From a virus, in IMG/VR virus record IMGVR_UViG_3300028025_000664, positions 1 through 24,069 of that record: a stretch of 24,069 nucleotides of DNA; one strand, 5' to 3'. Numbering within the stretch: position 1 is the stretch's first letter; the number at the start of each line of letters is the position of its first letter. The notes beneath the pieces were generated by a model. That model saw only the letters and a list, made by a program, of their open reading frames with translations. It was not told the DNA's origin and did not search any database. This document shows positions 687-14,110 of this stretch, piece by piece. The position numbers and the translations under genes were made by a program.

Positions 687-978
687 GTATACATTCGTTG
701 AGAAAGCAGAGGCGACTGGTGAATACACTGTTGCCTTAAAGTTTCTAGAGGGCAAGTACGAGGGTATGGTATTCTCGTACGGAGAAGTCAAATTTATAGA
801 GCATGGTGATGAAGATGCCGTTACTCTAAAGTTTGATTATGAAATTCATAAGAACCCTGGAAATGTTGACACCTTCGACAAACAAGAGGTAGAATATGTT
901 CTGGGAGGCTTTCTTCAAGAACTTATCAAAGAACAACTTGGTAAGAACGAACTCATTTACACTGGTGGAACTGATTAA
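679..978 (+). CDS. Small conserved protein between uvsX and gene 41
   Basis: A 99-residue acidic protein with no recognised domain, signal peptide or membrane segment. It is rich in alternating beta-type residues (YTVALKFLEGKYEGMVFSYGEVKFI) followed by a helical C-terminal half. It overlaps the end of uvsX by 8 bases, and its stop codon shares one base with the gene 41 start (TAATG), so it is almost certainly co-translated with both. It sits where T4 has gene 40, but I see no sequence resemblance to that membrane protein. A role in recombination or replication is suggested only by position. Confidence 0.75.
   Translation: MIKYTFVEKAEATGEYTVALKFLEGKYEGMVFSYGEVKFIEHGDEDAVTLKFDYEIHKNPGNVDTFDKQEVEYVLGGFLQELIKEQLGKNELIYTGGTD
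866..895 (+). promoter_or_regulatory. sigma70-like promoter inside the small gene, ahead of gene 41
   Basis: TTGACA at 866-871, an 18-base spacer, then TAGAAT at 890-895 (6/6 and 5/6 matches to consensus). It lies in coding sequence about 83 bases upstream of the gene 41 start. It could drive gene 41 independently of uvsX; functional use is inferred. Confidence 0.5.
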
Positions 979-2366
979 TGCGAATTGAAAAAACGATTCT
1001 TTCGAATCTTGTACATAATGAACAGTATTGCCGTAAGACCCTGCCCTTTGTAAAGACAGATTACTTCTCAGACCGCAAGGAGAAGATGATTGCTGAAGAG
1101 ATTACAAAGTTTTACGATACCTACAATAAACCAATCACACTGGAAATTCTTGCCATTCAACTTGGCAATCGTCATGACCTTGGTAGTGATTCTAGAGAGA
1201 TTGATACATATATTAATGAACTAACCTCAAAGGAAACGAATGAGGAATGGTTAGTTGCAGAGACTGAAAAGTTTTGCAAACAGCGAGCAGTATACAATGC
1301 TATTCTAGCATCAATCAAAATTATTGAAGGTAAAGATGACAAGCACAACCAAGAAGCTATACCCAGTTTACTTTCTGATGCACTTGGGGTTAGTTTTGAT
1401 CGCCATGTTGGTCATGACTACCTTGAAGATTTCGATGGACGTTTTGACTTTTATCATAGGGTTGAAGAAAAGGTTGCGTTTGATCTGGAACTCTTAAACA
1501 AAGTTACCAAAGGTGGGTTGTCAAAGAAAACCTTAAACGTAGCATTGGCTGGCACTGGTGTTGGTAAGTCTTTGTTTATGTGTCACTTTGCTGCTTCAAC
1601 TATGATGCAGGGTTTGAATGTGTTATACATAACTATGGAGATGGCTGAAGAACGTATCGCTGAACGTATTGACGCCAACTTGTTGAATCTTGGTATGGAT
1701 GAACTAAAGGTTATCGACAGAGATATCTTTACCAATCGTATCACAAAGGTTCAAAAGAAAACACAAGGTAAACTTATTATCAAAGAGTATCCAACTGCCT
1801 CTGCGCATGCTGGTCACTTTCGTTCTTTGCTTGAAGAACTAAAACTCAAGCGTGACTTTCTTCCTGATGTTGTTATTATTGATTACCTTAACATCTGCGC
1901 CAGCCAGCGTATGAAGATGGGCTCAAGTGTGAACTCTTATACATATATCAAGAGCATAGCAGAAGAACTGCGTGGTCTTGCAGTAGAGTATAACGTGCCT
2001 GTGTTGTCAGCGACTCAAACGACTCGATCTGGTTTTGCAAACACTGATGTAGAATTAACTGATACATCTGAATCTTTTGGATTGCCAGCCACCTGTGACT
2101 TTATGTTTGCGTTAATGACCAGTGAAGAATTGGATGGGTTAGGTCAGATTATGATTAAGCAGTTGAAGAATCGGTATGCCGATCCAAACTACTACAAAAG
2201 ATTTGTTGTAGGAATTGACAGATCAAAGATGAGGCTGTATAATGTAGAGGTGAGTGCGCAAGCAAACATCTCAGATGCTGGAACCGATGACGGACCAGCT
2301 TTTGATAAGTCTGACTTCGGCAAACGAATACATAGAGAAGAGAGTTTCGAAGGATTTAAGTTCTAG
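978..2366 (+). CDS. 41: Replicative DNA helicase, T4 gp41 (DnaB-like)
   Basis: Hexameric 5'-3' helicase of the phage replisome, partner of the gp61 primase encoded at 21219. The 462-residue length fits gp41. The N-terminal roughly 150 residues form the helical domain that contacts primase. The RecA-like C-terminal domain follows, with Walker A around residues 191-198 (GTGVGKS), an acidic ITMEMAEERIAERI helix, Walker B in DVVIIDYLNI, and SATQTTRSG as the sensor/H3-type motif. The start codon overlaps the upstream stop by one base. A second promoter lies inside its 3' part (2215-2243) and probably serves the next gene. The assignment is confident from motif order and the T4-like position beside uvsX. 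Confidence 0.95.
   Translation: MRIEKTILSNLVHNEQYCRKTLPFVKTDYFSDRKEKMIAEEITKFYDTYNKPITLEILAIQLGNRHDLGSDSREIDTYINELTSKETNEEWLVAETEKFCKQRAVYNAILASIKIIEGKDDKHNQEAIPSLLSDALGVSFDRHVGHDYLEDFDGRFDFYHRVEEKVAFDLELLNKVTKGGLSKKTLNVALAGTGVGKSLFMCHFAASTMMQGLNVLYITMEMAEERIAERIDANLLNLGMDELKVIDRDIFTNRITKVQKKTQGKLIIKEYPTASAHAGHFRSLLEELKLKRDFLPDVVIIDYLNICASQRMKMGSSVNSYTYIKSIAEELRGLAVEYNVPVLSATQTTRSGFANTDVELTDTSESFGLPATCDFMFALMTSEELDGLGQIMIKQLKNRYADPNYYKRFVVGIDRSKMRLYNVEVSAQANISDAGTDDGPAFDKSDFGKRIHREESFEGFKF
2215..2243 (+). promoter_or_regulatory. Perfect-consensus sigma70 promoter ahead of the modification cluster
   Basis: TTGACA (2215-2220), a 17-base spacer, and TATAAT (2238-2243): a 12/12 match at the optimal spacing. 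It lies inside the 3' end of gene 41, 138 bases (from -10 start) upstream of the dioxygenase gene at 2376, so transcription from here would cover the whole 2376-7294 gene set. The match is seen directly; activity is inferred. Confidence 0.7.
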
Positions 2367-2375
2367 GAGAATGAT

Positions 2376-3674
2376 ATGGTAAAAATTATTGTAGCAAAAG
2401 AAAAGCATGACTGTTCTCATCTGTCTGGGCAGTTTATTGATGAGAGACACTACGACCTTCTTATCGAAGAAGACACCGATGTGTATATGCCATGCAAGTA
2501 TGGTGAAGAACCATACACAGAGGACAAGATTGTTTTGAAGTTTCGTAAGAATTACTTTACAAAAGAACAACAGGAAATGGCATACGTTGGTCTCCGTGAA
2601 GCAGCAGTTGAAACCCAGAATCGTGGACTTGCAGCTGGACCACGTGGTGACAAACTAGGTAATCGTGAATGGGTTACTGAGTATGAGTATGATGTGCTTG
2701 ACTACTTTGTTAAGCCGACAGAGAATCTGTTTGGTGAAGATCCAATCGATCTTATCAAAGAACGCCACAAAGGTAAAGCACCATCGCCATCCAATCGTAA
2801 TAATGTTTGGGGTATTCAGGCAGTTAAGAAAGACAATTTTGTTTTTGCTGATTGGGTTGAGGCTACTCGTAAACTATCCAATGATGAGATGAAGGCAGAA
2901 GCCAATCGTGTAATCACAAAGTATGTTTGCGCAACTACCTATGCCAATGGCGTGTTCTCTGGTATTGCTGGTTGGTTCGATCGTTACCCACGTATCCCTT
3001 ATGGTCGTGCAACTTCATACACTGCTCGTCATCCTGATAAGTTTGCCAAGTCTTTCCCATTCCTTCAGCAATTGGCTAAAGGTTTTAAAGACCTACTTCC
3101 TCAGCGTTATGCAGCACAGATGGAAGCTGCAAACAAGATCGACAAAGGTTTCTTGGTTCCTGAAACCCCATTCACTACTGTTACAGTGAACAAAACATTC
3201 CGCACTGCTGCTCACTACGATGCTGGCGATCTGAATGAAGGTTTGTCTAACCTCTTGACACTTTCCAATGATGGTAAGTATACTGGTGGTTATTTGATTG
3301 CACCTGAGTATCGTGTTGCAGTTAATCCACGTCCAGGTGATTTGCTACTAATTAACAATCACGAAGTTATGCATGGTAATACTCCGATTGTTTGTGAAGA
3401 AGGTTCAGAGCGTATCTCTCTTGTTGTTTACTTCCGTGAGAAGATGCTTGAACTTGGTTCCAAGCAATACGAAGATACTCGTTATGACTTTGTTGAGTCA
3501 CGCAGACTGAACAAAGAACATCCTGAGTGGCGTCATCTATGGAATGGCGTATCGCAGGGTATGTGGCTTTCTGAAGAGTGGTATGAGTATTGCGAAAGCA
3601 AACTGGGTCGTGAGCAAACAGAAAAGTATCACCCAGAATCAATTAAAGCATCATCGCTTGAAAGTTTCTTTTAA
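2376..3674 (+). CDS. TET/JBP-family 2-oxoglutarate/Fe(II) dioxygenase
   Basis: Predicted DNA base dioxygenase that hydroxylates the methyl group of 5-methylcytosine (TET) or thymine (JBP) using Fe(II), O2 and 2-oxoglutarate. The C-terminal half holds the double-stranded beta-helix core. The HxD iron ligands are H280 and D282 in TAAHYDAGDLNEG, the distal ligand is H333 in NHEVMHGNTP, and the 2-oxoglutarate arginine is probably R346 in SERISL. The strand GGYLIAPEYRVAVNPRPGDLLL is typical of the family. The N-terminal about 200 residues, including GPRGDKLGNREWVTEYEY, have no assignable domain. The AGGAG ribosome site at 2365-2369 fixes the start. It is the first gene of an overlapping cluster with a kinase and an amidoligase, which favours DNA hypermodification over protein hydroxylation. 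Substrate (T or 5mC) cannot be decided from sequence. Confidence 0.85.
   Translation: MVKIIVAKEKHDCSHLSGQFIDERHYDLLIEEDTDVYMPCKYGEEPYTEDKIVLKFRKNYFTKEQQEMAYVGLREAAVETQNRGLAAGPRGDKLGNREWVTEYEYDVLDYFVKPTENLFGEDPIDLIKERHKGKAPSPSNRNNVWGIQAVKKDNFVFADWVEATRKLSNDEMKAEANRVITKYVCATTYANGVFSGIAGWFDRYPRIPYGRATSYTARHPDKFAKSFPFLQQLAKGFKDLLPQRYAAQMEAANKIDKGFLVPETPFTTVTVNKTFRTAAHYDAGDLNEGLSNLLTLSNDGKYTGGYLIAPEYRVAVNPRPGDLLLINNHEVMHGNTPIVCEEGSERISLVVYFREKMLELGSKQYEDTRYDFVESRRLNKEHPEWRHLWNGVSQGMWLSEEWYEYCESKLGREQTEKYHPESIKASSLESFF
3255..3284 (+). promoter_or_regulatory. Possible sigma70 promoter inside the dioxygenase gene
   Basis: TTGACA (3255-3260), an 18-base spacer, and TATACT (3279-3284), 6/6 and 5/6 matches. 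It lies about 390 bases before the amidotransferase start, farther than the other internal promoters, so it may be a chance match. Confidence 0.3.
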
Positions 3675-4360
3675 TGTGTTCAGTTATCGGTGCGATAATT
3701 AAAAAACCCGACCATGAAGACTTTCAAAAACTTGAGAAAGTATTTCATGAGTCTCGTATTCGTGGTCTTCATGCCACTGGTATTTCTTACGTAAAAGAAT
3801 ACACAATCCATACTATAAAACTTCCAGTGTCAGCGGATATGTTTCCGTTTTCTTGGAATGACTACGTGAATGAGGATGGCAATCTCTACTTGGTGGGGCA
3901 TTGCCGTTACTCAACATCAGACCTAGAATACAATCAACCCATTAATAATCAAACAACTTCTGTTGTTCATAATGGTGTTATCACACAGGAACTGCCAGAA
4001 AACTGGGAAAAGTTATATGGTTATAAGTGCGAGACTAAGAATGATACTGAACTGATTCTTCATACAATTGATGATGATAAGTCACCTTTGAAAGTTTGGA
4101 AAGATTCATCTCTTGCTGTTTGTGAACTTTGGTTTTGCAAGAAACTTAAATTCTATCGCAATGGGAAACGACCACTTTACTTGACTTCTTTAGACAATGG
4201 ATGTATAATTACTTCTACTAGGGATGTTATTGTTCGTGCTGGTATTACAGACCCAACAGTTGATGTTCCAATGAATACATACATTACCTTTGACGAATAC
4301 CTGACTATGACAACAGAAAAGGCTGACGTTGCAGGAGTTGATTATCAAATCGGAGTTTGA
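3674..4360 (+). CDS. Stand-alone class II glutamine amidotransferase (Ntn hydrolase)
   Basis: Glutaminase-type domain that releases ammonia from glutamine with an N-terminal cysteine nucleophile. C2 directly follows the initiator Met (MCSVIGAI), so Met removal would expose it. The other class II hallmarks are present at the expected spacing: GHCRYST at 75-81, HNG at 99-101 (oxyanion Asn/Gly) and KNDTE at 122-126, matching the order seen in GlmS and PurF. At 228 residues it is only the glutaminase domain, with no sugar-isomerase or phosphoribosyl domain, so it must pass ammonia to a partner. The obvious partner is the amidoligase that starts on the very next base. Its start overlaps the dioxygenase stop by one base and no strong ribosome site is visible, suggesting translational coupling. 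Family is certain; the final acceptor is unknown. Confidence 0.88.
   Translation: MCSVIGAIIKKPDHEDFQKLEKVFHESRIRGLHATGISYVKEYTIHTIKLPVSADMFPFSWNDYVNEDGNLYLVGHCRYSTSDLEYNQPINNQTTSVVHNGVITQELPENWEKLYGYKCETKNDTELILHTIDDDKSPLKVWKDSSLAVCELWFCKKLKFYRNGKRPLYLTSLDNGCIITSTRDVIVRAGITDPTVDVPMNTYITFDEYLTMTTEKADVAGVDYQIGV
4181..4209 (+). promoter_or_regulatory. sigma70 promoter inside the amidotransferase gene
   Basis: TTGACT (4181-4186), a 17-base spacer, and TATAAT (4204-4209): 11/12 to consensus at optimal spacing. It lies 157 bases (from -10 start) upstream of the amidoligase start, in the same relative place as the promoters ahead of 2376 and of thyX. It could boost the distal part of the modification cluster. 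Confidence 0.6.
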
Positions 4361-5332
4361 ATGAAATATAATACTGATGAGTTTAGCTACGGAGTTGAAC
4401 TAGAGTATGGTGATAGTTATCGCTTTTGCGAACTGCCTGATGGTGCTCAGTGGAATGACAAAGACAATACCTGTGTAAGCACTACAGGTATTGCCAACGA
4501 TCCAAATGGCAAGGTGTATGCTTATGGTGGTGAGATCAATACTCGCCCAACCATGACCATTGCTGAGCAGATTGAACACATTGCCAAGATCAATGCTGCC
4601 CTATGTCCTGCTCCTGTGGTAAACTACCGTAGCAACTTACATATTCACATTCGTGTTCCAAACCTTCATAACAATCTCGAAGATTGTAAGAAGCTACTAC
4701 GCTATGTAGAACGCTACCAGCAACAGGCATTTGATATCGTTGAAACTATCCCCACACCAAACAAGAATGTGTTACCACCAGAACAGTACGAGTGGGCACT
4801 GAAACGTATGAAGCGTCGTAAGAAGTCGCATCAGAATAAGTTACCACCTGCTCGAGTTGAGGCTATGTTGGCTTCTGAAACAGTGCATGACTTCTATGTT
4901 AATCATGCGCACAAAAATGCTGAGGGTGAGCCAGCATGGTTCCAATGCCCACGTGCAGGTATCAATCTGCGTCAGATGTGGGAAGAAACAAATACAATCG
5001 AGTTTCGCCACTTTCCAGGAACGCTGTATATGCCTGAGATGGAATCCTGTATTCGTTGGTGTAGAGACTTTCTCGATGCAGCATTAAACAGAGATGATGT
5101 GTCTCCACGTGAGTTCCATGCTGAAAGCGAATGGCAGTTTCCTGACTTTGAACCATACGAGTTTGAAACTGAACAGATCTATCAGTGGACTAACTTCGAT
5201 ACCAATACAAAGAAAGACATTGAAAAGCGTATTGCTGCACTCAGAAAAGAAATAGACATTGATGCTATCGGTAAGATTACGTCTCTTGATGTATTCCCTA
5301 TCATGCGTCGTTTACAATCAGAGGGTTTATGA
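4361..5332 (+). CDS. COOH-NH2 amidoligase (glutamine-synthetase-like fold)
   Basis: Predicted ATP-dependent ligase joining a carboxylate to an amine. Signatures of the amidoligase superfamily appear in order: GVELEY at 11-16 (metal-binding Glu pair), GGEINTRP at 56-63, NLHIHIRV at 92-99 (the paired His of the GLHVH-type motif), INLRQM at 201-206 and NTIEFRHF at 211-218. The last about 100 residues are helical and charged. A CGGAG ribosome site precedes the ATG, which immediately follows the amidotransferase stop. Amidoligases beside glutamine amidotransferases are an association already noted in comparative genomics of this superfamily, with the latter supplying ammonia or trimming glutamyl groups. 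Here the surrounding dioxygenase and kinase suggest the substrate is an amino acid attached to DNA; that is inference. Confidence 0.8.
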   Translation: MKYNTDEFSYGVELEYGDSYRFCELPDGAQWNDKDNTCVSTTGIANDPNGKVYAYGGEINTRPTMTIAEQIEHIAKINAALCPAPVVNYRSNLHIHIRVPNLHNNLEDCKKLLRYVERYQQQAFDIVETIPTPNKNVLPPEQYEWALKRMKRRKKSHQNKLPPARVEAMLASETVHDFYVNHAHKNAEGEPAWFQCPRAGINLRQMWEETNTIEFRHFPGTLYMPEMESCIRWCRDFLDAALNRDDVSPREFHAESEWQFPDFEPYEFETEQIYQWTNFDTNTKKDIEKRIAALRKEIDIDAIGKITSLDVFPIMRRLQSEGL

Positions 5333-5751
5333 AAGTATTGTTCCTTTGTCATGGCAATGTAAACCGCAGTGCTGCTGCGGAGATTATCCTCAGGCAGGAT
5401 TATCCACACATCGAAGTAAAGTCAGCTGGTCTCAAGACTACTGATGGTAGAATCACTGCCAAGAAGATGCGTGATGTTCTTAATGACCATGGTTACAAGA
5501 CAGAAGGTATTCGTTCTACCGCAGTCACTCAAGAGTTGGTTGACTGGGCGGATGAGATTTTCTACATGGACGATGCCAATAAAAAGAGATTTGTCGATAA
5601 ATTCGGGGACTTACCCAAGGCACAGAAGCTGTCCAATCTAATCCCTGGAGTCAAAAAGATTCCTGATCCAGCATTCGCTGACGGAACTAATATGCACCAT
5701 GAAGTTGTTAACCTAATCAAGACTGCTCTGAATACATGGACTACCGCTTAA
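5329..5751 (+). CDS. Low-molecular-weight phosphotyrosine phosphatase-like protein
   Basis: A 140-residue protein of the LMW-PTP / arsenate reductase fold. The phosphate-binding loop is near the N-terminus: C7-x5-R13-S14 in FLCHGNVNRSAAAE. The general-acid loop DP (D113-P114) is in KKIPDPAF near the C-terminus, as in the family. The usual second cysteine of CxGNxCRS is Asn12 here, so a redox or arsenate-reductase role is less likely than phosphate-ester hydrolysis. It overlaps the amidoligase stop by ATGA (4 bases) and the next gene by 16 bases, so it is locked into the cluster. A function on phosphorylated base intermediates is attractive, but host-protein dephosphorylation is equally possible from sequence. 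Confidence 0.85.
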   Translation: MKVLFLCHGNVNRSAAAEIILRQDYPHIEVKSAGLKTTDGRITAKKMRDVLNDHGYKTEGIRSTAVTQELVDWADEIFYMDDANKKRFVDKFGDLPKAQKLSNLIPGVKKIPDPAFADGTNMHHEVVNLIKTALNTWTTA

Positions 5752-6755
5752 GAGAGAATCGTAGAGAAGCATTCATACGCTGGTACGCATGGTCATTGAA
5801 GTATGATGATTGCGATCCAGCTGTATGGGCTACGAATTATCTAAACAAACGCTACGAACACAACGATGAACAACGTCTGTGGCTTTGCTGGCTATATGGC
5901 AACACTTACTATCTTCCAACCTCATGGGTTCTGTTAAACGAATTCCCTGACTTTGAACTAGCAACTGTTGGTCGTATGGAACAGTGGAACACTGCCAACT
6001 ATAAACGTCTTCGTTATCAGACAGATACCAAGTGGAACAAGGGACATCTACCAGAGATGTTTGCTTCCTATCAGAAGTTTATCGGTGACAGAACACAACG
6101 TGAAGTATTGGAGAGTTATTATGGTGACAACGAGAGCAGAAATTTTGACAACCTGTGGGAACGGATTAAAGGCGATCTTCATAAGTTCGGTCGTTACTCC
6201 ACTTGGTTTTATCTTCAGCATCTTAAGCATACCGCTGGTATTCGGATCAATCCTACTTCTCTTATGCTGGATGACTATTCTGGTTCTCGCTCTCATCGTA
6301 ATGGGTTGCTTTATGCCCTCGGCAAAGATGACCTTTGTGATACAAAACTTACTCAGTCGGAATACGCTAGTCTTGAAAGCGAGTCAACCTCAATCCTTAT
6401 GGAAACGAAATCCCGTTTCCCAGATCTAGCAGATCAGGTAGACTTCTTTACGATGGAAACCTGCCTGTGTTCCTTTAAGAAGATCTTCAGAGAACACCAT
6501 GGTCGTTACCTTGGATACTATCTGGATCGTCAGGCAGAGGAGATTATGCAATGCGAAAAGGATGGCTGGTTTGGTATTGAGTGGCAAGTCCTTTGGGATG
6601 CTCGCAACGAAACCATAGACTTACGTTTGGATAGCAAACGTGGAATAGTCAAGGAGAACTTTACTTCCTTCGTTAGAACAGGTAAAATGTCTAATCTGGA
6701 ATGGATGTTTGATGATGAAGAATATGTTAATACAGGACTGGAGATGTTTTTATGA
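5736..6755 (+). CDS. Amino acid:DNA transferase / hmdU-kinase-helical family protein (former aGPT-PPlase group)
   Basis: A 339-residue, mostly helical soluble protein. I match it by pattern to phage proteins first described as alpha-glutamyl/putrescinyl-thymine pyrophosphorylases and later split into amino acid:DNA transferases and the helical domain of 5-hydroxymethyl-dU DNA kinase. Recognisable stretches are WLCWLYGNTYYLPTSWVLLN and NEFPDFEL, the block NYKRLRYQTDTKWNKGHLPEM, and SLMLDDYSGSRSHRNGL. Many invariant-looking Trp, Arg and Asp residues suggest an active enzyme. Its start lies 16 bases inside the phosphatase gene and its stop overlaps the P-loop kinase start by ATGA. If it is a transferase it would displace (pyro)phosphate from an activated base with an amino acid amine; if a helical partner, it would complete the small kinase that follows. 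I cannot separate these by eye. Confidence 0.6.
   Translation: MDYRLRENRREAFIRWYAWSLKYDDCDPAVWATNYLNKRYEHNDEQRLWLCWLYGNTYYLPTSWVLLNEFPDFELATVGRMEQWNTANYKRLRYQTDTKWNKGHLPEMFASYQKFIGDRTQREVLESYYGDNESRNFDNLWERIKGDLHKFGRYSTWFYLQHLKHTAGIRINPTSLMLDDYSGSRSHRNGLLYALGKDDLCDTKLTQSEYASLESESTSILMETKSRFPDLADQVDFFTMETCLCSFKKIFREHHGRYLGYYLDRQAEEIMQCEKDGWFGIEWQVLWDARNETIDLRLDSKRGIVKENFTSFVRTGKMSNLEWMFDDEEYVNTGLEMFL
6660..6688 (+). promoter_or_regulatory. Weak possible promoter ahead of the kinase gene
   Basis: TTTACT (6660-6665), a 17-base spacer, and TAAAAT (6683-6688), 4/6 and 5/6 matches, 64 bases before the kinase start. Similar matches occur by chance in AT-rich coding DNA, so it is listed with low confidence. 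Confidence 0.2.
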
Positions 6756-7294
6756 GAAAATTGATGGCAGTTGGTGGTCAACCAGGAACTGGTAAAACGA
6801 CACTGTTTCGTAAGTTTATGGAAAGTTACCAGTGGGAAACTGTGGAACCAAAGAAGATGCTTCCTGCGCTTTACTGCAAGGAACTGGATCTTTATGTTCT
6901 GGGCAAGTACGAGGATGGTGAAACCTTTGCAGGAACTGATCGTTTAAGTATGGCTGTTCAGCCTGTGGCGCAGAGTTTCGTGGCTGAAACCACTTCCAAT
7001 ATCCTATTCGAAGGCGACCGAATCTTTAACCAGTCTTTCTTGGAATTCGCCATGGGTTTGGAAGCCACCGACCTTCAGGTGGTTTATCTCAAGGTTCCAA
7101 ATGACCTGCTAAAGCAACGCTATGCGGATCGAGGTTCCGACCAATCCGAGACGTTTCTAAAAGGTCGTACGACTAAATATAACAACATCCTCTCAAACTT
7201 TGAGTTGATGCCCTATATTACTGAGTTTGTAAACACTAACTTAGAGGAACAAGGGAAAGTTCTTGCATTTATGGAGAAGCATCTGGTGAGTTGA
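6752..7294 (+). CDS. P-loop kinase, candidate 5-hydroxymethyl-base DNA kinase
   Basis: A 180-residue P-loop NTPase of the small-kinase type. Walker A is at residues 9-16 (GQPGTGKT) right at the N-terminus. A strand ending NILFEGDR (Walker-B-like Asp) is followed by LQVVYLKVP and an arginine-rich lid region (KQRYADRGSDQ). In known thymidine-hypermodifying phages a P-loop kinase phosphorylates 5-hydroxymethyl-dU in DNA before amino acid or polyamine transfer. Its coupling by ATGA overlap to the transferase/helical-domain gene and its place downstream of a TET/JBP enzyme fit that role. A generic nucleotide or polynucleotide kinase is the alternative. The stop codon overlaps the -35 box of the next promoter. 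Confidence 0.7.
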   Translation: MRKLMAVGGQPGTGKTTLFRKFMESYQWETVEPKKMLPALYCKELDLYVLGKYEDGETFAGTDRLSMAVQPVAQSFVAETTSNILFEGDRIFNQSFLEFAMGLEATDLQVVYLKVPNDLLKQRYADRGSDQSETFLKGRTTKYNNILSNFELMPYITEFVNTNLEEQGKVLAFMEKHLVS

Positions 7295-7319
7295 CATGCA
7301 AGGATTTTCTAGGTATAAT
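7291..7319 (+). promoter_or_regulatory. Perfect-consensus sigma70 promoter with a near-leaderless start
   Basis: TTGACA (7291-7296, overlapping the kinase stop codon), a 17-base spacer, and TATAAT (7314-7319), 12/12 to consensus. Only seven bases separate the -10 box from the ATG at 7327, so the expected transcription start falls at or next to the start codon. Confidence 0.75.
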
Positions 7320-7326
7320 TATCATT

Positions 7327-8034
7327 ATGAACTTCCTAGAAAACGCAACTTTCAACTGGATGGAATTGCTCAACTTTTATGAGCAACCATTCAGAGCTAA
7401 ACTCATTCCTGCCAAAGTCTGGAAGGATCTAGACCGCTATCGCAACGATTCAGCTGGTCTTACGAACTACGTCCGAAAGTGGCGAACCAAGATCAACTGG
7501 ATCACCATTCTTCCCAAGAAGAAGTCCTACGAAACCAACGTCTATGTTGGTGGTGAATACGATCCGAACGATCGACAGTGTATCCTTATCATCTATGCCA
7601 GAGACTTCGATAGCTTCCCCTTTACAGACTACAAGTGGGCGAGGTTTAAGTATCGTCTGATGCAAACTCTGATGCATGAGATAATCCACTTTATGCAGTA
7701 CGACCGAAGAGACGATATCTGGAGCAATTACGTTGTTCCTTACAAGAAGGTAGGCATAGCAAAGAAGGATGCCGAACGTAGATACCTCTCTGAGTTTGAC
7801 GAAATACAGGCTTATGCTCACTGCGTTTATCTAGACTACAAGATGAACAAACCCAATGTTCCAATCGAAACCCTCTTGGCTCGTTGCAAGAAATCCAAAG
7901 ACAAAGACTCCCCCACCCTCCACTACGTTCTTAAGACATTTAACTATGACTTCAGGAACAATGGTGCGCCACGCAAAATCATTGACCACATCGGTAAATG
8001 GCACAGAAAGTATTCTAGACTTAATCCTGCCTAA
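7327..8034 (+). CDS. Putative zinc metallopeptidase (HExxH protein)
   Basis: A 235-residue protein with a zincin-type motif, H117-E-I-I-H121 in LMHEIIHFMQYDRR. Downstream glutamates (E156, E159) in SEFDEIQAYAH could supply the third zinc ligand, as in gluzincin-like families. No signal peptide or membrane segment is seen, so it would act in the cytoplasm or virion. The start at 7327 is chosen over a TTG at 7291, because that TTG is the first half of a perfect promoter. The mRNA from that promoter would be leaderless or nearly so. The substrate is unknown. It sits between the modification cluster and the late genes, and its stop overlaps a late promoter. A structural, non-catalytic role is possible. 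Confidence 0.65.
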   Translation: MNFLENATFNWMELLNFYEQPFRAKLIPAKVWKDLDRYRNDSAGLTNYVRKWRTKINWITILPKKKSYETNVYVGGEYDPNDRQCILIIYARDFDSFPFTDYKWARFKYRLMQTLMHEIIHFMQYDRRDDIWSNYVVPYKKVGIAKKDAERRYLSEFDEIQAYAHCVYLDYKMNKPNVPIETLLARCKKSKDKDSPTLHYVLKTFNYDFRNNGAPRKIIDHIGKWHRKYSRLNPA

Positions 8035-8065: not shown

Positions 8066-9145
8066 ATGTCTGGACAAGTTAAAAACAAACAATTGATACC
8101 GACTGCTTTTGGAATAGCAGACGGGAATGAAGTCACACTCACTTCTTTAAACACCAAAGTAAAGGGTAAGTTAAAGAACATGGGGTTGTCTCCAGCTGTT
8201 GTATCAGCATGCGAGTATCTTTACGATCAGGCACTGAAAGGGAACGACACCTTTCCAACGAATCCTGGAACCCTTAGTAAAGAAGATTACAACATCATTC
8301 TAAAAGACTTCGGTGAAATAACTGGAGCAGCATGGTTGTTACAAACGCATAATAAGAAATATAAAGCAGTTAAGTTTCCTGTGGGTAATGAGAAGCTGAT
8401 TGACTACATGCTAGTAACAAAGCAGGGTCTAGTAGAAAAGTTTTCAGCGAAGGCTGGGCAGGGTGGCAAACCTTCCATTACTTCTTTAATGCCAGTCATC
8501 GAGGAATTGATTACTACATCACAGGCAACCCTTGACATCAAACTAGCAAAACCATCATGGGTCATCTACCATCTTTCAACTGAAGAAAAGAATGGTTTAT
8601 ATTTCGGACCACTTAAAGCAGCGCAGTATTTAAATAGTCCTGGATGGGCAGCATTAACAAAATTGCTGAAGCACAAAGATCTCAAAACAGGTTATACAAC
8701 TGGTCTTCCTACGCAGGCACAGATGGAAACTGCTGTAGTGAATATGGGTACATACGAAAACCTTCGTAAGTACGCCAAAGAATTCTACGATGCCACTGGT
8801 TATTCCAGTACAATTAACGTAGAAGTTTCTAAACGTATTATGGGTAAAGGTTATGATCGTGTTCGTTATGGTTTATTACATTACCCAATTACAGCTGAAA
8901 TGGTTAAATGGTTAAATACCTCATCTAATCATGCTCAAACCCTTTTAAATATGACTGCCAATACTTTAAATATTCAGCAGGTTTATATGGATTTAAAAGG
9001 CACTTCAATTGTTTATAGCGTAAAAGCATTCTCAGACGCTGAGTTTAAATTCGGTTCTCCGAGTAGCGCACCATATCCTACTAATAATAGAATGGGTTTT
9101 ACAATGAATAAATCACCTCAACCTATTAATAGAATTAAAGACTAA
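8066..9145 (+). CDS. Unknown late protein, 359 residues
   Basis: I do not recognise the family. The protein is soluble, with no signal peptide or transmembrane segment. The N-terminal 110 residues are mixed helical. A central part reads KLIDYMLVTKQGLVEKFSAKAGQ, a D-(x)n-hydrophobic-SxK pattern faintly like a PD-(D/E)XK nuclease core but too weak to call. The C-terminal part contains YDRVRYGLLHYPITAEMVKW and an ending rich in Ser, Pro and Asn (SPSSAPYPTNN). From about 8860 to the end the third positions become markedly AT-rich compared with the first half. It has its own late-type promoter and is followed by a 63-base gap with an inverted repeat and a promoter. A virion or late-acting role is inferred from the promoter only. 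Confidence 0.7.
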   Translation: MSGQVKNKQLIPTAFGIADGNEVTLTSLNTKVKGKLKNMGLSPAVVSACEYLYDQALKGNDTFPTNPGTLSKEDYNIILKDFGEITGAAWLLQTHNKKYKAVKFPVGNEKLIDYMLVTKQGLVEKFSAKAGQGGKPSITSLMPVIEELITTSQATLDIKLAKPSWVIYHLSTEEKNGLYFGPLKAAQYLNSPGWAALTKLLKHKDLKTGYTTGLPTQAQMETAVVNMGTYENLRKYAKEFYDATGYSSTINVEVSKRIMGKGYDRVRYGLLHYPITAEMVKWLNTSSNHAQTLLNMTANTLNIQQVYMDLKGTSIVYSVKAFSDAEFKFGSPSSAPYPTNNRMGFTMNKSPQPINRIKD

Positions 9146-9152
9146 TCCCCTC

Positions 9153-9182
9153 AGTTCCGTAGGGTTATCGCTTGACGGAATT
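9153..9182 (+). repeat. Inverted repeat overlapping a -35 box
   Basis: The arms TTCCGT (9155-9160) and ACGGAA (9175-9180) are perfect and extend to 8 bp with a G-T wobble, around a 14-base loop. The right arm overlaps the TTGACG -35 box of the following promoter. It could be an operator or a weak terminator for the preceding gene; no long T-run follows, so terminator function is doubtful. Confidence 0.4.
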
Positions 9183-9200
9183 TGGAAACTATGGTATAAT
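9172..9200 (+). promoter_or_regulatory. sigma70 promoter with near-leaderless start
   Basis: TTGACG (9172-9177), a 17-base spacer, and TATAAT (9195-9200), 11/12 to consensus. The ATG at 9209 lies only eight bases after the -10 box, so the transcript would begin at about the start codon, the same geometry as at 7291-7329. Confidence 0.65.
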
Positions 9201-9208
9201 TAGAGTAT

Positions 9209-10432
9209 ATGCTGAATCTCAAGTCCTACATAAAAGAAGAAAAAAACACTCACATGGAGCACCTCGAAGATCTGATCTTCAACGAGGGTGTTGCTGGTAC
9301 AAAACAAGCAATCAAATTCCTACGTGATCTGCGTGACATGCTTGCAAGCAGCGCAAAGTCAAAAGTTACGTCAACTGTAAAATGGGATGGTGCTCCAGCG
9401 ATCTTTGCTGGTATTGATCCACGTGATGGCAAATTCTTTATTGCCAAGAAGGGTGTGTTCAACAAAGAGCCAAAAATATATAAAACAGTGGCTGAGATTG
9501 ACGCTGATACAGATGGCGATCTGGCAGCAAAGTTTAAAGTAGCATTGCAAGAGTTTAGTAAGTTGGGAATTAAAAAAGGGGTCTATCAGGGTGATCTAAT
9601 GTTTACTCAATCAGACCTGAAGTTAGAAACCATAGAAGGATCCAAGTATATTACCTTCCATCCCAACACTATTGTTTATGCCGTGCCAGCTGAAAGCGAT
9701 CTAGCCAAGCAGATCAAGAAAGCAAAGATTGGTGTCGTGTGGCATACCACTTACACTGGTGCTACCTTTGAATCAATGACTGCTTCGTTTGGTAAAGGCA
9801 TCGTTGAGAAATTCAAAAATGTTTCTAGCATCTGGATGGATGATGCAAACTACAAAGACTATTCAGGTACTGCTACCTTTACAAAAGCAGAAACCACTAA
9901 ACTGGATAGCATTATCAAGAAAGCCGATACGCTGGTGGCTTCGATTCAAACCCCTGTGTTAAATGGTATTAGTCAGAATCCTGACCTAATGTTGTTGGTT
10001 AAAACCTTTGGCAACAGTAAGATACGTGCTGGCGAAAAGATTACCGATACCAGCAAGTACGTGACTGAACTGTTTAATTACATCCATGAGAAACTAGAAC
10101 CAAAGCAGAAAACCGAAAAGGGTAAAGCTGCTGGTGAAGAAAAGCGTAAAAAGATCATGGCATTCTTTGCCAACCATGATAAAAAAGAGATCGTTAAGAT
10201 CTTTGATCTGGCAAATACGTTGGTTGACGCCAAGCATATGATTGTCGATAAGATGAATCAGGCTGGTCATATCTCTACCTTCCTTAAGACTACCAATGGC
10301 TTTAAAGTTACTGGAGTTGAGGGTTTTGTGGCTATTGACCACATGACAGGTGGAGCAGTTAAGATTATTAACCGTATGGAGTTTAGCCAGTCTAACTTCT
10401 CCCCAGAAATTATCAAGGGTTGGCAAAGATAA
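9209..10432 (+). CDS. KxDG nucleotidyltransferase (polynucleotide-ligase-like), possible capsid cargo
   Basis: A 407-residue protein of a family common in marine T4-like phages and usually left unannotated. I see an ordered set of ligase-superfamily motifs: motif I K58-W-D-G61 in TVKWDGAPAIFAG (the lysine that becomes nucleotidylated), the FFIAKKG strand at 77-82, a motif-III-like VYQGDLMF at 125-132, motif IV V370-E-G-F-V and motif V A383-V-K-I-I. A long mostly helical insertion (about 200-360) separates motifs III and IV, which is unusual. The N-terminus MLNLKSYIKEEKN resembles the capsid-targeting peptide of T4 internal proteins with an IxE cleavage site. This suggests the enzyme is packaged in the head. 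Ligase activity on DNA or RNA is inference; a degenerate nucleotidyltransferase is possible. Confidence 0.6.
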   Translation: MLNLKSYIKEEKNTHMEHLEDLIFNEGVAGTKQAIKFLRDLRDMLASSAKSKVTSTVKWDGAPAIFAGIDPRDGKFFIAKKGVFNKEPKIYKTVAEIDADTDGDLAAKFKVALQEFSKLGIKKGVYQGDLMFTQSDLKLETIEGSKYITFHPNTIVYAVPAESDLAKQIKKAKIGVVWHTTYTGATFESMTASFGKGIVEKFKNVSSIWMDDANYKDYSGTATFTKAETTKLDSIIKKADTLVASIQTPVLNGISQNPDLMLLVKTFGNSKIRAGEKITDTSKYVTELFNYIHEKLEPKQKTEKGKAAGEEKRKKIMAFFANHDKKEIVKIFDLANTLVDAKHMIVDKMNQAGHISTFLKTTNGFKVTGVEGFVAIDHMTGGAVKIINRMEFSQSNFSPEIIKGWQR

Positions 10433-10474: not shown

Positions 10475-13400
10475 ATGAAGAATTATAGACAATTAGTCAA
10501 GGAACTTCCTTCCAAGAAAGTAGTATTTGCGTTTGGTCGCTTTCAGCCACCAACGACAGGTCACGAACTTTTGGTGAATGCCGTCAAGAAATTGGCTGGC
10601 ACTACAGCTGATCATGTCATCTATGCCTCAAAGACTGAGGATAAGAAATCAAATCCCCTTCCCGTTGCTCGTAAGGTATACTTCCTTAAGCGGATGTTCC
10701 CGAAAACAAACTTCGTTGCCGCAAGTGCAGAAGTTAGAACTCCGATTGAAGCAGCAAAAGAACTCAATAAAAAATACAAAAACATTGTCTTGGTTGCAGG
10801 TAGCGACCGAGTTGCATCATTCCAGAAACTATTGAATGATTACAATGGTAAAGAATATCACTTTGATACAATCGAAGTAGTTTCCGCAGGTGAACGTGAT
10901 CCAGATAGCGATACAGCTTCTGGTATGAGTGGCACCAAGATGCGTGAAGCAGCAGTGGCTGGTGACTTTAATAAGTTTAAAAAAGGTTTGCCACATACCC
11001 TAACCGAACTAGATGGTCGTCGTTTAATGAACGACATCCGCAAAGGTTTGGGACACCCAGTTATCAAAGAATCGTTCGTTGTAAGTACCAACGTCCTTCG
11101 CGAAAGATACATTAACGAAGAGATCTTTCTTATCGGTGACAAGGTTCAGGATGCCAATGGCGTCTATGAGATTATGGATCGTGGCACTAACTACGTTACT
11201 GTTGCTGATTCAAAAGGCGATCTAAGCAAAAAGTGGTTAGATCAGATTACCGAAAGCGAAATCACCGAAGACATTCCTGGTGGTTATGCTCCAAAGGAAG
11301 TTTCCTTCAAGGGTTTCACTACAAAGAATTTACATCACTCCGCTGATGCCACTGATGCGTTTATGCAAACCATCCAACGTCAGGGTGACAAAGATCCAGT
11401 TGCAGTGCTCAACGCACTCAAGGCAACTGATACATACATGCAAATTAACGACCTTCACTTGGCACAGGGTGGTATAGCACCAGACCAAGCTGAAATTAAT
11501 ACATGGATTGCAGCCCATGACAAAGCCAAAGAATCTCTGGATCGTGTTGGTGAATTCCTGCACCATGAAGATTACTGGCACATGCATCAGCATGAGTTAG
11601 AAGGTCTGCTAACAAATTACAAAGAAACAGGTAAAGACGATATGAACGAAGAACTATCCGATAAAACCATCAAAGGTTCTGATAAGATTAAAGTTGCACG
11701 AATCATTGCCAATACCTTTGGTGTGGAAAATGCAGAAGCAACAAGCGATCCTACGCAGTTGGTTAACTCTGGTTTGCGTAAGGTTCGTGGTAAAGCATTC
11801 AATGCTGACTCCCTAAAGATCATTGGCAAGATGCTTGAGTTGGCCAGAGAAGTTGGTATCCAATATGATAACAATCTCGTTCCAACCAAGTTAAAGGAAG
11901 GCACTATTCAGCCAAATGGAACAGACAAGATTGATGTGTTAAGTAATGCACCGACTGATCGCACAAAGACTGTTTACTACAAAGACTTCAAGAAGATGAT
12001 TCAAAAGGAAGAAGTTGTAGACAAGAAAGACAACGAAAGTGATCATGACTACGATGCAAGGATGACTGCTCATCCACATTCTCATGTGGGTCATGCTATG
12101 TCATCACCAGCAGATAGCACTAACCTTCGTCGTCAAAAGGTTAGATATCGTTTGGGTGAAGAAGTAGAACTAGAAGAGTCTGCAGCAGATTTAGATAAAC
12201 ATATCTCTACCTTTGGAAAAGGTGTTAAGTCCTCAGCTGCAAAACAAAGCACATACAAGCGTGATAATAAACCAATCCACAATATGAAGCATGTGGAAAC
12301 TGATTCGGATCATCATGCAGTTTTTAAACATCTACAAAAGATGGGTTACAAAAAGACTTCTGGTTATGATTCAAAACCAAATGAGTTTACTATGCACCAC
12401 AATCGCGATGAGATGACATCAAAGAGCGATCCAGTTCACCACTCGTCTGGCGTTTCTGCCCATGTGGAAAAAGAACATGGTGGCAAGACTAAGGTTCACT
12501 TCACTCATCGTGGTATGAAAGAAGAAGTTCAGCTGGACGAATCATACGAGAAAGCTGAAGCGCATCGTACCAAAGCCATGGATGCTCAGAAGAAAGGTGA
12601 CAACGAGAAGTTTCATCACCACATGAGCAACCACTACGAAGCCCTATCACAGTGGCACAGTAGCAAAGGTCGCCACAATATGGCAGACCTGACATCTCAG
12701 AAAGCAGACAAGCACCATGAGGCATCTACCAATGGTGGCAAGTTAAAGACAGAAGAAGTAACTGAAGAACCAGCGATGAAGCATCGTGTGGCTGTTACTG
12801 TATCTGATCCAAACCATACTGTAGTTTCCAAACGTAAAGAACAGGTTCAAAAGTTTGCCAAGGTAACTGCTGCCAGTGAAGCTGATGCACTTAAGAAAGC
12901 CTCTGCGCACTTCAAGAAAGCTGGATTCAAGATCCATGGTGCCGAGCATCACTCAATGGTCAAGGAAGATCTAAACGAACTGTCAAACGACACATTGGCT
13001 TCTTATAAAAAGAAAGCTGGCGCTGAAGCAAGTGCTGCTGACAAAGCTGGCGATACAAAGAAAGCAGACAAGCGTTTCTCTGGTATCATCAAAGCTACTA
13101 AGAAAGAATTTGTCAACGACTTAAGAAAAGAAGATGTTGATACATCTGAATACACCATTAAGAAGTTTGTTGGTGGTGATGGTAAGACTCATGAGAGAAA
13201 GATTCGCCCAAAGCGTGTTACCTTTGCCGCAAGTAAAACAGGTGGCGAGCCAGCACAGGGCAAACAAAGAGACGAAAGTTATTACACTAAAGTAGTTGAT
13301 GCCCTAAACGAAGCCATGACAGCTATCGATAAAGGCGAGTACGACTACGAAGGTCAGATGGCAAGAACGCAGTTGCAAACAACATTGCGTAATTGTAAAG

Positions 13401-14110
13401 ATTTGATCGACATGATCAAAGACGATGATAACATGCCAGAGTGGGTTCAGTCTAAGATTACCTTAGCACAAGATTACATCACAACTGTTAGAGATTATCT
13501 CCAGTCAAAAGAAGAACTTGGCGAAGAAACAAAAGCTGAGTTAGAAAAAGATACAGACTACGAAGATTACAAAGATCCTTTCTTTGAAGAAAGCGATGAT
13601 TCTGAAGAAATGTCAGATGATGACATGGACGCTATGATCAACAGCACACAAGACCATGAGTTTTTAGATGCGTATGATGAAGACGAATTGCATATCGTTG
13701 ATCTAGATACTGGCGAGCCAGTTGAGGATGATGAGAAAGATATTAAAGAAGAAACACTCATGGAAGTGTTGTCTCGTTTCGAACGTATGCGTGCAAAGAT
13801 GCGTTTTTCCAAGACAAAATCTAAGCGTGAACGTCGTATGGCTATCGCATTGAAGAGTCGTTCTAATACTCAAACTCTAAATAAACGTGCACGTCGTATG
13901 GCTGTTCTTCTAATGAAGAAACGTATTGCCAGAAAACCTTTGAGCCAGTTATCAATCGGCGAAAAGGAAAGACTAGAAACCATTATTCAAAGACGCAAAG
14001 CAGTGATTGGTCGTATCGCCATGAAGCTGACACCACGCATGCGCAAGATCGAACAGAATCGTTTGTCCCACACCAAGGGTGGAACAGGCAGCACTAACAA
14101 TGCATTTTAA
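10475..14110 (+). CDS. Giant multidomain late protein with N-terminal HxGH-type nucleotidyltransferase
   Basis: A 1211-residue fusion. Residues 14-170 form a cytidylyltransferase/NMN-adenylyltransferase-like domain with GRFQPPTTGH at 21-30 and the second signature SGTKMR at 152-157. Residues about 219-260 (IGDKVQDANGVYEIMDRGTNY) look like a small KOW/SH3-type barrel. The rest is a chain of helical, His- and Lys-rich segments separated by short acidic linkers ending in (L/I)xE (VELEES, VQLDES, DLNELS), then a strongly acidic stretch and a basic C-terminal roughly 116 residues (RFERMRAKMRFSKTKSKRER). The N-terminus MKNYRQLVKE resembles the targeting peptide of T4 internal proteins. The linkers look like prohead-protease sites, so the product may be packaged and cut into pieces. 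Equivalent proteins occur in marine T4-like phages; function is unproven. Confidence 0.7.
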   Translation: MKNYRQLVKELPSKKVVFAFGRFQPPTTGHELLVNAVKKLAGTTADHVIYASKTEDKKSNPLPVARKVYFLKRMFPKTNFVAASAEVRTPIEAAKELNKKYKNIVLVAGSDRVASFQKLLNDYNGKEYHFDTIEVVSAGERDPDSDTASGMSGTKMREAAVAGDFNKFKKGLPHTLTELDGRRLMNDIRKGLGHPVIKESFVVSTNVLRERYINEEIFLIGDKVQDANGVYEIMDRGTNYVTVADSKGDLSKKWLDQITESEITEDIPGGYAPKEVSFKGFTTKNLHHSADATDAFMQTIQRQGDKDPVAVLNALKATDTYMQINDLHLAQGGIAPDQAEINTWIAAHDKAKESLDRVGEFLHHEDYWHMHQHELEGLLTNYKETGKDDMNEELSDKTIKGSDKIKVARIIANTFGVENAEATSDPTQLVNSGLRKVRGKAFNADSLKIIGKMLELAREVGIQYDNNLVPTKLKEGTIQPNGTDKIDVLSNAPTDRTKTVYYKDFKKMIQKEEVVDKKDNESDHDYDARMTAHPHSHVGHAMSSPADSTNLRRQKVRYRLGEEVELEESAADLDKHISTFGKGVKSSAAKQSTYKRDNKPIHNMKHVETDSDHHAVFKHLQKMGYKKTSGYDSKPNEFTMHHNRDEMTSKSDPVHHSSGVSAHVEKEHGGKTKVHFTHRGMKEEVQLDESYEKAEAHRTKAMDAQKKGDNEKFHHHMSNHYEALSQWHSSKGRHNMADLTSQKADKHHEASTNGGKLKTEEVTEEPAMKHRVAVTVSDPNHTVVSKRKEQVQKFAKVTAASEADALKKASAHFKKAGFKIHGAEHHSMVKEDLNELSNDTLASYKKKAGAEASAADKAGDTKKADKRFSGIIKATKKEFVNDLRKEDVDTSEYTIKKFVGGDGKTHERKIRPKRVTFAASKTGGEPAQGKQRDESYYTKVVDALNEAMTAIDKGEYDYEGQMARTQLQTTLRNCKDLIDMIKDDDNMPEWVQSKITLAQDYITTVRDYLQSKEELGEETKAELEKDTDYEDYKDPFFEESDDSEEMSDDDMDAMINSTQDHEFLDAYDEDELHIVDLDTGEPVEDDEKDIKEETLMEVLSRFERMRAKMRFSKTKSKRERRMAIALKSRSNTQTLNKRARRMAVLLMKKRIARKPLSQLSIGEKERLETIIQRRKAVIGRIAMKLTPRMRKIEQNRLSHTKGGTGSTNNAF

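Follow-up and report, generated by a model that had tools for sequence, protein, structure and literature searches.

The window analysed here is a 24-kb fragment (24,069 nucleotides, IMG/VR record IMGVR_UViG_3300028025_000664) of a T4-like phage, and all its recognisable genes lie on the plus strand. Between the gp41 helicase gene and a probable Zn-peptidase gene, it carries a cassette of six tightly packed genes (2376-7294), all of which overlap or abut their neighbours. In order, the cassette encodes a TET/JBP dioxygenase, a stand-alone class II glutamine amidotransferase (GAT), an Amidoligase_2 protein (AML), a low-molecular-weight (LMW) phosphatase (LMWP), an amino acid:DNA transferase (ADDT), and a kinase (Pfam: PF12851, GATase_6, Amidoligase_2, LMWPc, ADDT, and Ploopntkinase3). 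A first-pass annotation of this DNA had read the adjacent GAT and AML as one split amidotransferase that would convert a carboxylate into a carboxamide. On balance, our analysis favours another view, namely that GAT and AML serve two separate steps of thymidine hypermodification, in which an amine is brought onto the base and then capped with an acyl group. The features of the locus are as follows:

978-2366, plus strand: gp41 helicase
2215..2243, plus strand: perfect sigma-70 promoter consensus TTGACA-17-TATAAT (12/12, a consensus match only), inside the 3' end of the gp41 gene and upstream of the cassette
2376..3674, plus strand: TET/JBP 2OG-Fe(II) dioxygenase (PF12851, 1e-24), with H280xD282, the H329 region (HEVMHG), and ERIS at 345-348
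3674..4360, plus strand: GAT, an N-terminal nucleophile (Ntn) glutaminase (PF13522, 1.5e-9), with catalytic motifs and PurF/GlmS fold
4361..5332, plus strand: AML (PF12224, 9.1e-5), with residues conserved across the family and a glutamine synthetase/glutamylcysteine synthetase (GS/GCS) fold
5329..5751, plus strand: LMW phosphatase (PF01451, 4.8e-17), with intact CX5RS and PDP motifs
5736..6755, plus strand: ADDT (PF18724, 2.3e-22)
6752..7294, plus strand: P-loop kinase (Ploopntkinase3; PF18751, 1.8e-10), a predicted 5-hydroxymethylpyrimidine DNA kinase, with Walker A motif GQPGTGKT
7291..7319, plus strand: second perfect sigma-70 promoter consensus (12/12, a consensus match only), directly behind the kinase gene
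about 7327-8034, plus strand: probable Zn-peptidase gene

Catalytic motifs are present in five of the six cassette proteins, ADDT being the one that was not examined for motifs, and a nucleotide search with the cassette among phage isolates gave no match. The GAT protein, with a length of 228 amino acids, has the Cys directly after the initiator Met (Cys2) and the motifs GHCRY (75-79), HNG (99-101), and NDTE (123-126), whose columns are invariant or near-invariant in an alignment of 23 homologues and which form the Arg/Asn-Gly/Asp glutamine pocket typical of class II enzymes. Its AlphaFold model (pLDDT 93) has the Ntn fold, with the glutaminase domains of PurF and GlmS as the first fold matches and EgtC next, and PurF is also the first match of the sequence profile. 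The closest homologue by sequence and fold is thus an enzyme that exchanges pyrophosphate for ammonia. GAT is a complete glutaminase domain on its own, with no room for a synthase domain, just as the first-pass annotation had described it. The assignment of AML, which comprises 323 amino acids, is built differently. Its PF12224 score of 22.9 bits barely passes the cut-off of 22, while 24 of 29 homologues match Amidoligase_2 (best 2e-8), and the residues E13/E15, E58, H94/H96, and E214/R216 are invariant in the family, in agreement with the Glu, His, and Arg motifs noted before. As the sequence profile had no meaningful match in the PDB, we relied on the fold: the model (pLDDT 95) matches YbdK-type enzymes with Z 10.7 and glutamine synthetases with Z about 9, and a second aligner consistently returned GS/GCS proteins, as did, weakly, Foldseek (best E 1.5e-3, to glutamine synthetases). 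The modelled structure hence points to an ATP-dependent amide-forming enzyme. The search of bacterial and archaeal genomes for AML gave a single locus, in a Parcubacteria metagenome-assembled genome (MAG), that resembles phage DNA.

Whether GAT and AML belong together can be judged from their distribution. About 390 loci were fetched with four separate anchors (AML, TET, GAT, and ADDT), and their neighbourhoods were tallied with profiles built here. The tallies demanded flanking sequence, and most contigs are fragments, so that single absences are weak; loci were dereplicated where stated, the spacing count of 101 loci and the table of GAT against the DAO flavoenzyme being redundant. Among 59 nonredundant TET-anchored loci, 21 have the order GAT-AML-phosphatase-ADDT-kinase (in 8 of these, a glycosyltransferase-like gene separates GAT from AML), 7 have GAT-AML2-GNAT-ADDT-kinase, and 23 have GAT-GNAT-ADDT-kinase without any amidoligase, which is 23 of the 51 that bear GAT. 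No nearby GAT was seen in the remaining 8, although the position filter missed GAT in two of these (L154 and L168), where it lies several kb upstream of TET. In this tally, GAT is associated with ADDT (p=1e-5), AML goes with LMWP (21/0/0/38, p=2e-16), and AML and the GNATC type are mutually exclusive (p=6e-10). The 52 nonredundant GAT-anchored loci all have ADDT and the kinase, 38 have AML, leaving 14 without it, and none has the flavoenzyme. Conversely, GAT accompanies AML in 40 of 60 AML-anchored loci, the DAO flavoenzyme in 13, and neither in 7, so that 20 of 60 have AML without GAT. A distant GAT hidden in the GAT-less phages finds no support, as none was found genome-wide in the contigs of the DAO flavoenzyme type by a search that contained positive controls; likewise, AML was not found anywhere on two GNAT-type GAT contigs of 163 and 171 kb. 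None of 248 sequences fuses GAT to AML or ADDT, the only fusion seen being that of phosphatase and kinase, and neither the consistent co-occurrence nor the domain fusion in a relative that obligate subunits should display was observed. In a GAT tree of 90 rows, a quick tree with many weak forks, the module behind GAT (AML plus phosphatase, AML2 plus GNAT, or GNAT alone) changes at least 27 times. The constant partners of GAT are ADDT and the kinase, and those of the optional AML are the LMW phosphatase or GNAT; the distribution of GAT and AML, which the first-pass annotation had named among the tests of its proposal, is largely uncoupled. The phosphatase-kinase fusion, a single open reading frame (ORF) at 3184-4257 of L157, joins the LMW phosphatase to the P-loop kinase and places the phosphatase in the part of the pathway that handles the base phosphate.

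The two ORFs do abut, as had been noted, with the GAT stop codon TGA followed immediately by the ATG of AML (gap 0 bp). In the 101 loci, such a 0-bp gap occurs 16 times and the 1-base overlap of TET stop and GAT start 93 times, which makes close packing a trait of TET-GAT more than of GAT-AML. In four TET-less loci (L157, L159, L163, and L164), GAT adjoins ADDT and AML comes third (GAT-ADDT-AML). A glycosyltransferase-like gene lies between GAT and AML in L020-L022, L025, L031, L032, L038, L144, and L149, which suggests a further sugar step. What stands of the split-enzyme proposal is a GAT of the ammonia-releasing type without its own synthase and an AML with an amide-forming, ATP-dependent fold; one obligate enzyme for the conversion of carboxylate to carboxamide does not agree with two genes whose distribution is largely uncoupled. 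In its workable form, the proposal would have ADDT attach an amino acid such as glycine or glutamate, whose free carboxylate AML would activate with ATP for conversion to the carboxamide with GAT ammonia, and the GATs of AML-less genomes would serve another acceptor. The missing gap in the clade of the window, the complementary folds, the neighbourhood of class II GATs and amidoligases also in LUZ24-like phages, and the fact that in the dereplicated TET lineage AML occurs only where GAT is present (28/0) speak for it, and a GAT-AML partnership may exist inside the AML-containing lineage. Nevertheless, we regard this explanation as rather unlikely, given the many loci with only one of the two genes, the one-to-one relation of GAT and ADDT, and the flavoenzyme of GAT-less AML loci, which is expected to leave an amine and not a carboxylate on the base.

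The GAT-less AML loci are informative in this respect, as most of them combine a DAO flavoenzyme with ADDT and HMUDK-type kinase domains. Among AML loci, GAT and DAO never occur together (both 0, GAT only 87, DAO only 11, neither 10; p=1e-9 in the redundant set). One such locus without GAT is the phage-like contig L248 (QZIP01000028.1) of the Parcubacteria MAG, which has AML, phosphatase, ADDT, DAO flavoenzyme, kinase, and TET. Two further ADDT loci without GAT and without flavoenzyme (L298 and L321) have a pyridoxal phosphate (PLP) enzyme of the PALP type together with a radical-SAM-like protein, whose copy in L298 was called by its likeness to that in L321. In ADDT-anchored DAO clusters, AML is present in 12 and GNAT in 6, and the two never coincide. 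In the same kind of clusters, GNATs follow GAT as well as DAO; behind GAT, GNAT replaces or accompanies AML, and behind the flavoenzyme, it replaces AML. A flavin lyase of the DAO type is said to turn N-glycyl-thymidine into 5-aminomethyl-deoxyuridine (dU), radical SAM plus PLP enzymes reportedly leave 5-aminoethyl-dU, and the amine is reportedly acetylated by GNAT. These AML backgrounds suggest an amine on the base as the AML substrate. The simplest reading is a grid, in which GAT, DAO, or radical SAM/PLP would make the amine, and AML plus phosphatase, AML2 plus GNAT, or GNAT alone would cap it, which makes a transfer of ammonia from GAT to AML unnecessary. Alternatively, AML may build a small-molecule nucleophile such as a gamma-glutamyl amide off the DNA, which ADDT would then attach. 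The joining of free glutamate to amines is classic for the GS/GCS ligases that AML resembles (GCS/YbdK fold matches), and alpha-putrescinylthymine occurs in phiW-14 DNA (PMC5977210), but this would explain neither the alternation of AML and GNAT behind both GAT and DAO nor the link of AML to amine-making enzymes, which makes it improbable.

With respect to the modified base, the cassette unites a hydroxymethyl source, a kinase for 5-hydroxymethyluracil (5-hmU), and an ADDT, as seen in phage thymidine hypermodification, and the three genes bear out the DNA-base modification setting suggested by the first-pass annotation. PF00145 (C5-methylase) had no match in 14 records that included near-complete TET-type relatives, and PF00303 (ThyA-type) had none in TET/GAT-type contigs, which points to hydroxymethylation on the DNA, starting from thymine or host-made 5-methylcytosine (5mC). 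A ThyA homologue was found in 8 of 8 searched TET-less AML clusters of the DAO/HMUDK type, and TET-less homologous cassettes have the 5-hydroxymethyl-dU (5-hmdU) kinase domains PF18723, PF18747, and PF18748. Across clusters, TET and the ThyA homologue are thus alternative hydroxymethyl sources. A ThyA-type enzyme supplies 5-hydroxymethyl-dUMP in phiW-14 (PMC5977210), and thymine is hydroxylated by JBP enzymes (PMC6449724). From the lack of C5-methylase and ThyA in the relatives and the ThyA homologue in TET-less AML clusters, thymine is likely the target rather than cytosine. TET-less GAT loci comprise L157, L159, and L164, in which no hydroxymethyl source was seen, possibly due to contig ends, and L163, which has a GAT-ADDT-AML-phosphatase cluster (8744-9784) without TET, together with a ThyA homologue and HMUD2/HMUDK_hel kinase genes. 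L163 links the GAT-type and HMUDK-type clusters. If TET oxidised 5mC from a host methylase, the same chemistry could take place at cytosine C5, and phage TETs reportedly act on 5mC. In the relatives searched, no C5-cytosine or dCMP methylase was found, although a 5mC-dependent phage TET system would be expected to encode one, leaving host methylases as a possible source, and the dioxygenase-less homologous cassettes have a ThyA homologue and 5-hmdU kinase domains. We therefore consider a cytosine target quite doubtful.

From the domain identities, folds, motifs, co-occurrence, exclusion, and module swapping observed here, we infer substrates, a reaction order, channelling from GAT to ADDT, and a product of the cassette. 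The TET/JBP dioxygenase would hydroxylate thymine of the phage DNA to 5-hmU, and the kinase would phosphorylate or pyrophosphorylate the hydroxymethyl group. GAT, the predicted ammonia donor of ADDT, would hydrolyse glutamine, and ADDT would use the ammonia to displace the phosphate leaving group, as PurF does on phosphoribosyl pyrophosphate, resulting in 5-aminomethyluracil. With ATP and via an acyl-phosphate intermediate, AML would then join the carboxylate of an amino acid or another small acid to the base amine, which generates an amide. The LMW phosphatase would act on the same branch as AML, for example by removing phosphate from an activated intermediate or from one that is over-phosphorylated. 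In other clusters, GNAT acetyltransferases would act instead of or after AML, and the route via glycine and the DAO flavoenzyme would take the place of the GAT step. For M6, ViI, and phiW-14, it is accepted that a kinase acts on 5-hmdU and that an alkylamine is then transferred (PMC6449724), and 5-aminomethyluracil has been reported from phage DNA (PMC11550810). Taken together, it is conceivable, and we propose it tentatively, that GAT and ADDT constitute a split DNA aminase that transfers glutamine ammonia onto thymine in DNA to give 5-aminomethyluracil, that AML is a GS-fold ligase acting on DNA in an ATP-dependent amide formation with an amino acid or another acid, and that a swappable grid of amine-making and capping modules is common to T4-like and other phages.

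Several points weigh against this proposal. Published ADDTs are reported to use amino acids and not ammonia. The roles assigned here to the DAO and GNAT enzymes are taken from earlier reports, and the TET lineage has AML only together with GAT, as mentioned above. AML could be served by free cellular ammonia or host GATases where GAT is missing. Five AML loci (L120, L169, L170, L176, and L181) have neither GAT nor DAO nor the radical SAM/PALP pair, and in L305, a DAO enzyme and a radical SAM/SPASM protein are both present. AML2 and GNAT are present together in 17-18 loci, so that AML and GNAT do not strictly replace each other, and capping can have two parts. As to the remaining explanations, a pair akin to EgtC/EgtA, in which the GCS-fold ligase adds a gamma-glutamyl group that a hydrolase of the class II GATase fold later removes, would match the EgtC and GCS structures found with the GAT and AML folds, but is very improbable, as both sequence and fold rank place GAT nearer to PurF/GlmS and a deglutamylase would be pointless in GAT-bearing loci without AML. 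Cell-wall or peptide modification, a guess from LUZ24-like operons, was rejected for this cassette in view of TET, ADDT, and the kinase.

Thymidine-hypermodification clusters are said to combine a 5-hmdU DNA kinase, an amino acid:DNA transferase, and tailoring enzymes, and phage TET/JBP modification cassettes reportedly have variable downstream tailoring. The clusters of M6, ViI, PaMx11, and phiW-14 (PMC6449724) resemble ours in the ADDT and kinase homologues and in the modular tailoring behind them, and their GNAT, DAO flavoenzyme, and radical SAM/PLP modules were seen in the relatives fetched here. The window differs in that 5-hmU is predicted to come from TET and not from a ThyA-type dUMP hydroxymethylase, GAT takes the place of the flavoenzyme, and the tailoring consists of AML and the LMW phosphatase. 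The pathway class is therefore known, whereas the GAT and AML plus LMW phosphatase modules are, as far as could be checked, uncharacterised. With other phage TET/JBP cassettes, the window shares the TET/JBP gene and variable tailoring downstream, where the close relatives L043, L079, and L096 have a glycosyltransferase-like gene; here, however, kinase, ADDT, GAT, and AML are found, and the relatives yielded no C5-methylase. PurF has the same type of glutaminase domain and the formal chemistry proposed here, in which ammonia displaces a phosphate leaving group, but in the window the glutaminase stands on a polypeptide of its own, and ADDT as the transferase belongs to an unrelated family acting on DNA. 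The LUZ24-like operon of GATase II, Amidoligase_2, COOH-NH2 ligase, ATP-grasp, and AIG2 (UFV-P2, L122) likewise places a phage class II GATase close to an Amidoligase_2, but its GATase resides on a much longer protein with about 27% identity, further ligases are present, and no TET, ADDT, or kinase is annotated nearby. Ergothioneine EgtA/EgtC and PuuA/PuuD-type pairs also use an amide-ligase fold and a glutaminase fold in one pathway, but in our case GAT follows ADDT and not the ligase.

Some further observations concern relatives and neighbouring genes. L079 (2244-6765) is closely related to the window (2376-8034), with identities of 96.5% for gp41, 92% for UvsX, and 73.6% for TET, and behind TET it has genes read by eye as glycosyltransferase-like, SulP-like transporter, and HAD-like; relative to the window, this is a swap of the whole cassette. 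The cultured Caulobacter phage Cr30 (L117, 9001-15474) has TET, ADDT, and kinase homologues and, nearby, a gene annotated as inositol-1-phosphate synthase, and no GAT. Another cultured relative, phage Simon (PQ683277), belongs to the type with AML, phosphatase, and flavoenzyme. In DLP6, Cr30, and S-CBWM1 (L116, L117, and L121), the TET/JBP proteins are publicly annotated as 'SNF2 DNA repair protein', probably by mistaken annotation transfer. A review (PMC7824862) cites amidoligases and reports no TET in jumbo phages. Vibrio phage 2.275.O (L120, 7890-12150) has a distant AML with 7-deazaguanine genes and an Ntn-hydrolase-like gene as neighbours, where it might carry out an amide step on another base. 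In the window, the two perfect sigma-70 consensus sites bracket the cassette, and the second appears to mark its end. The listed TTG start (7291) of the next ORF overlaps this promoter consensus, and the true start is therefore probably the ATG near 7327. Further downstream, an ORF of 1211 amino acids (10475-14110) begins with a nucleotidyltransferase-like motif (GRFQPPTTGHELL) that is followed by a long low-complexity part.

If our interpretation is true, phages would have a second route to an amine on DNA that uses ammonia from glutamine instead of glycine and a flavoenzyme, and an ATP-dependent amide ligase would work on a nucleobase. Phage TETs that oxidise thymine would gain a use as the entry to hypermodification, and the module behind GAT or DAO would predict, as a rule, which cap is placed on the amine. 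T4-like phages and phages of other types would then be expected to carry a range of DNA bases not seen so far, with consequences for restriction, CRISPR, and virome sequencing, and the product of the cassette would be a chemical disguise for the viral DNA.

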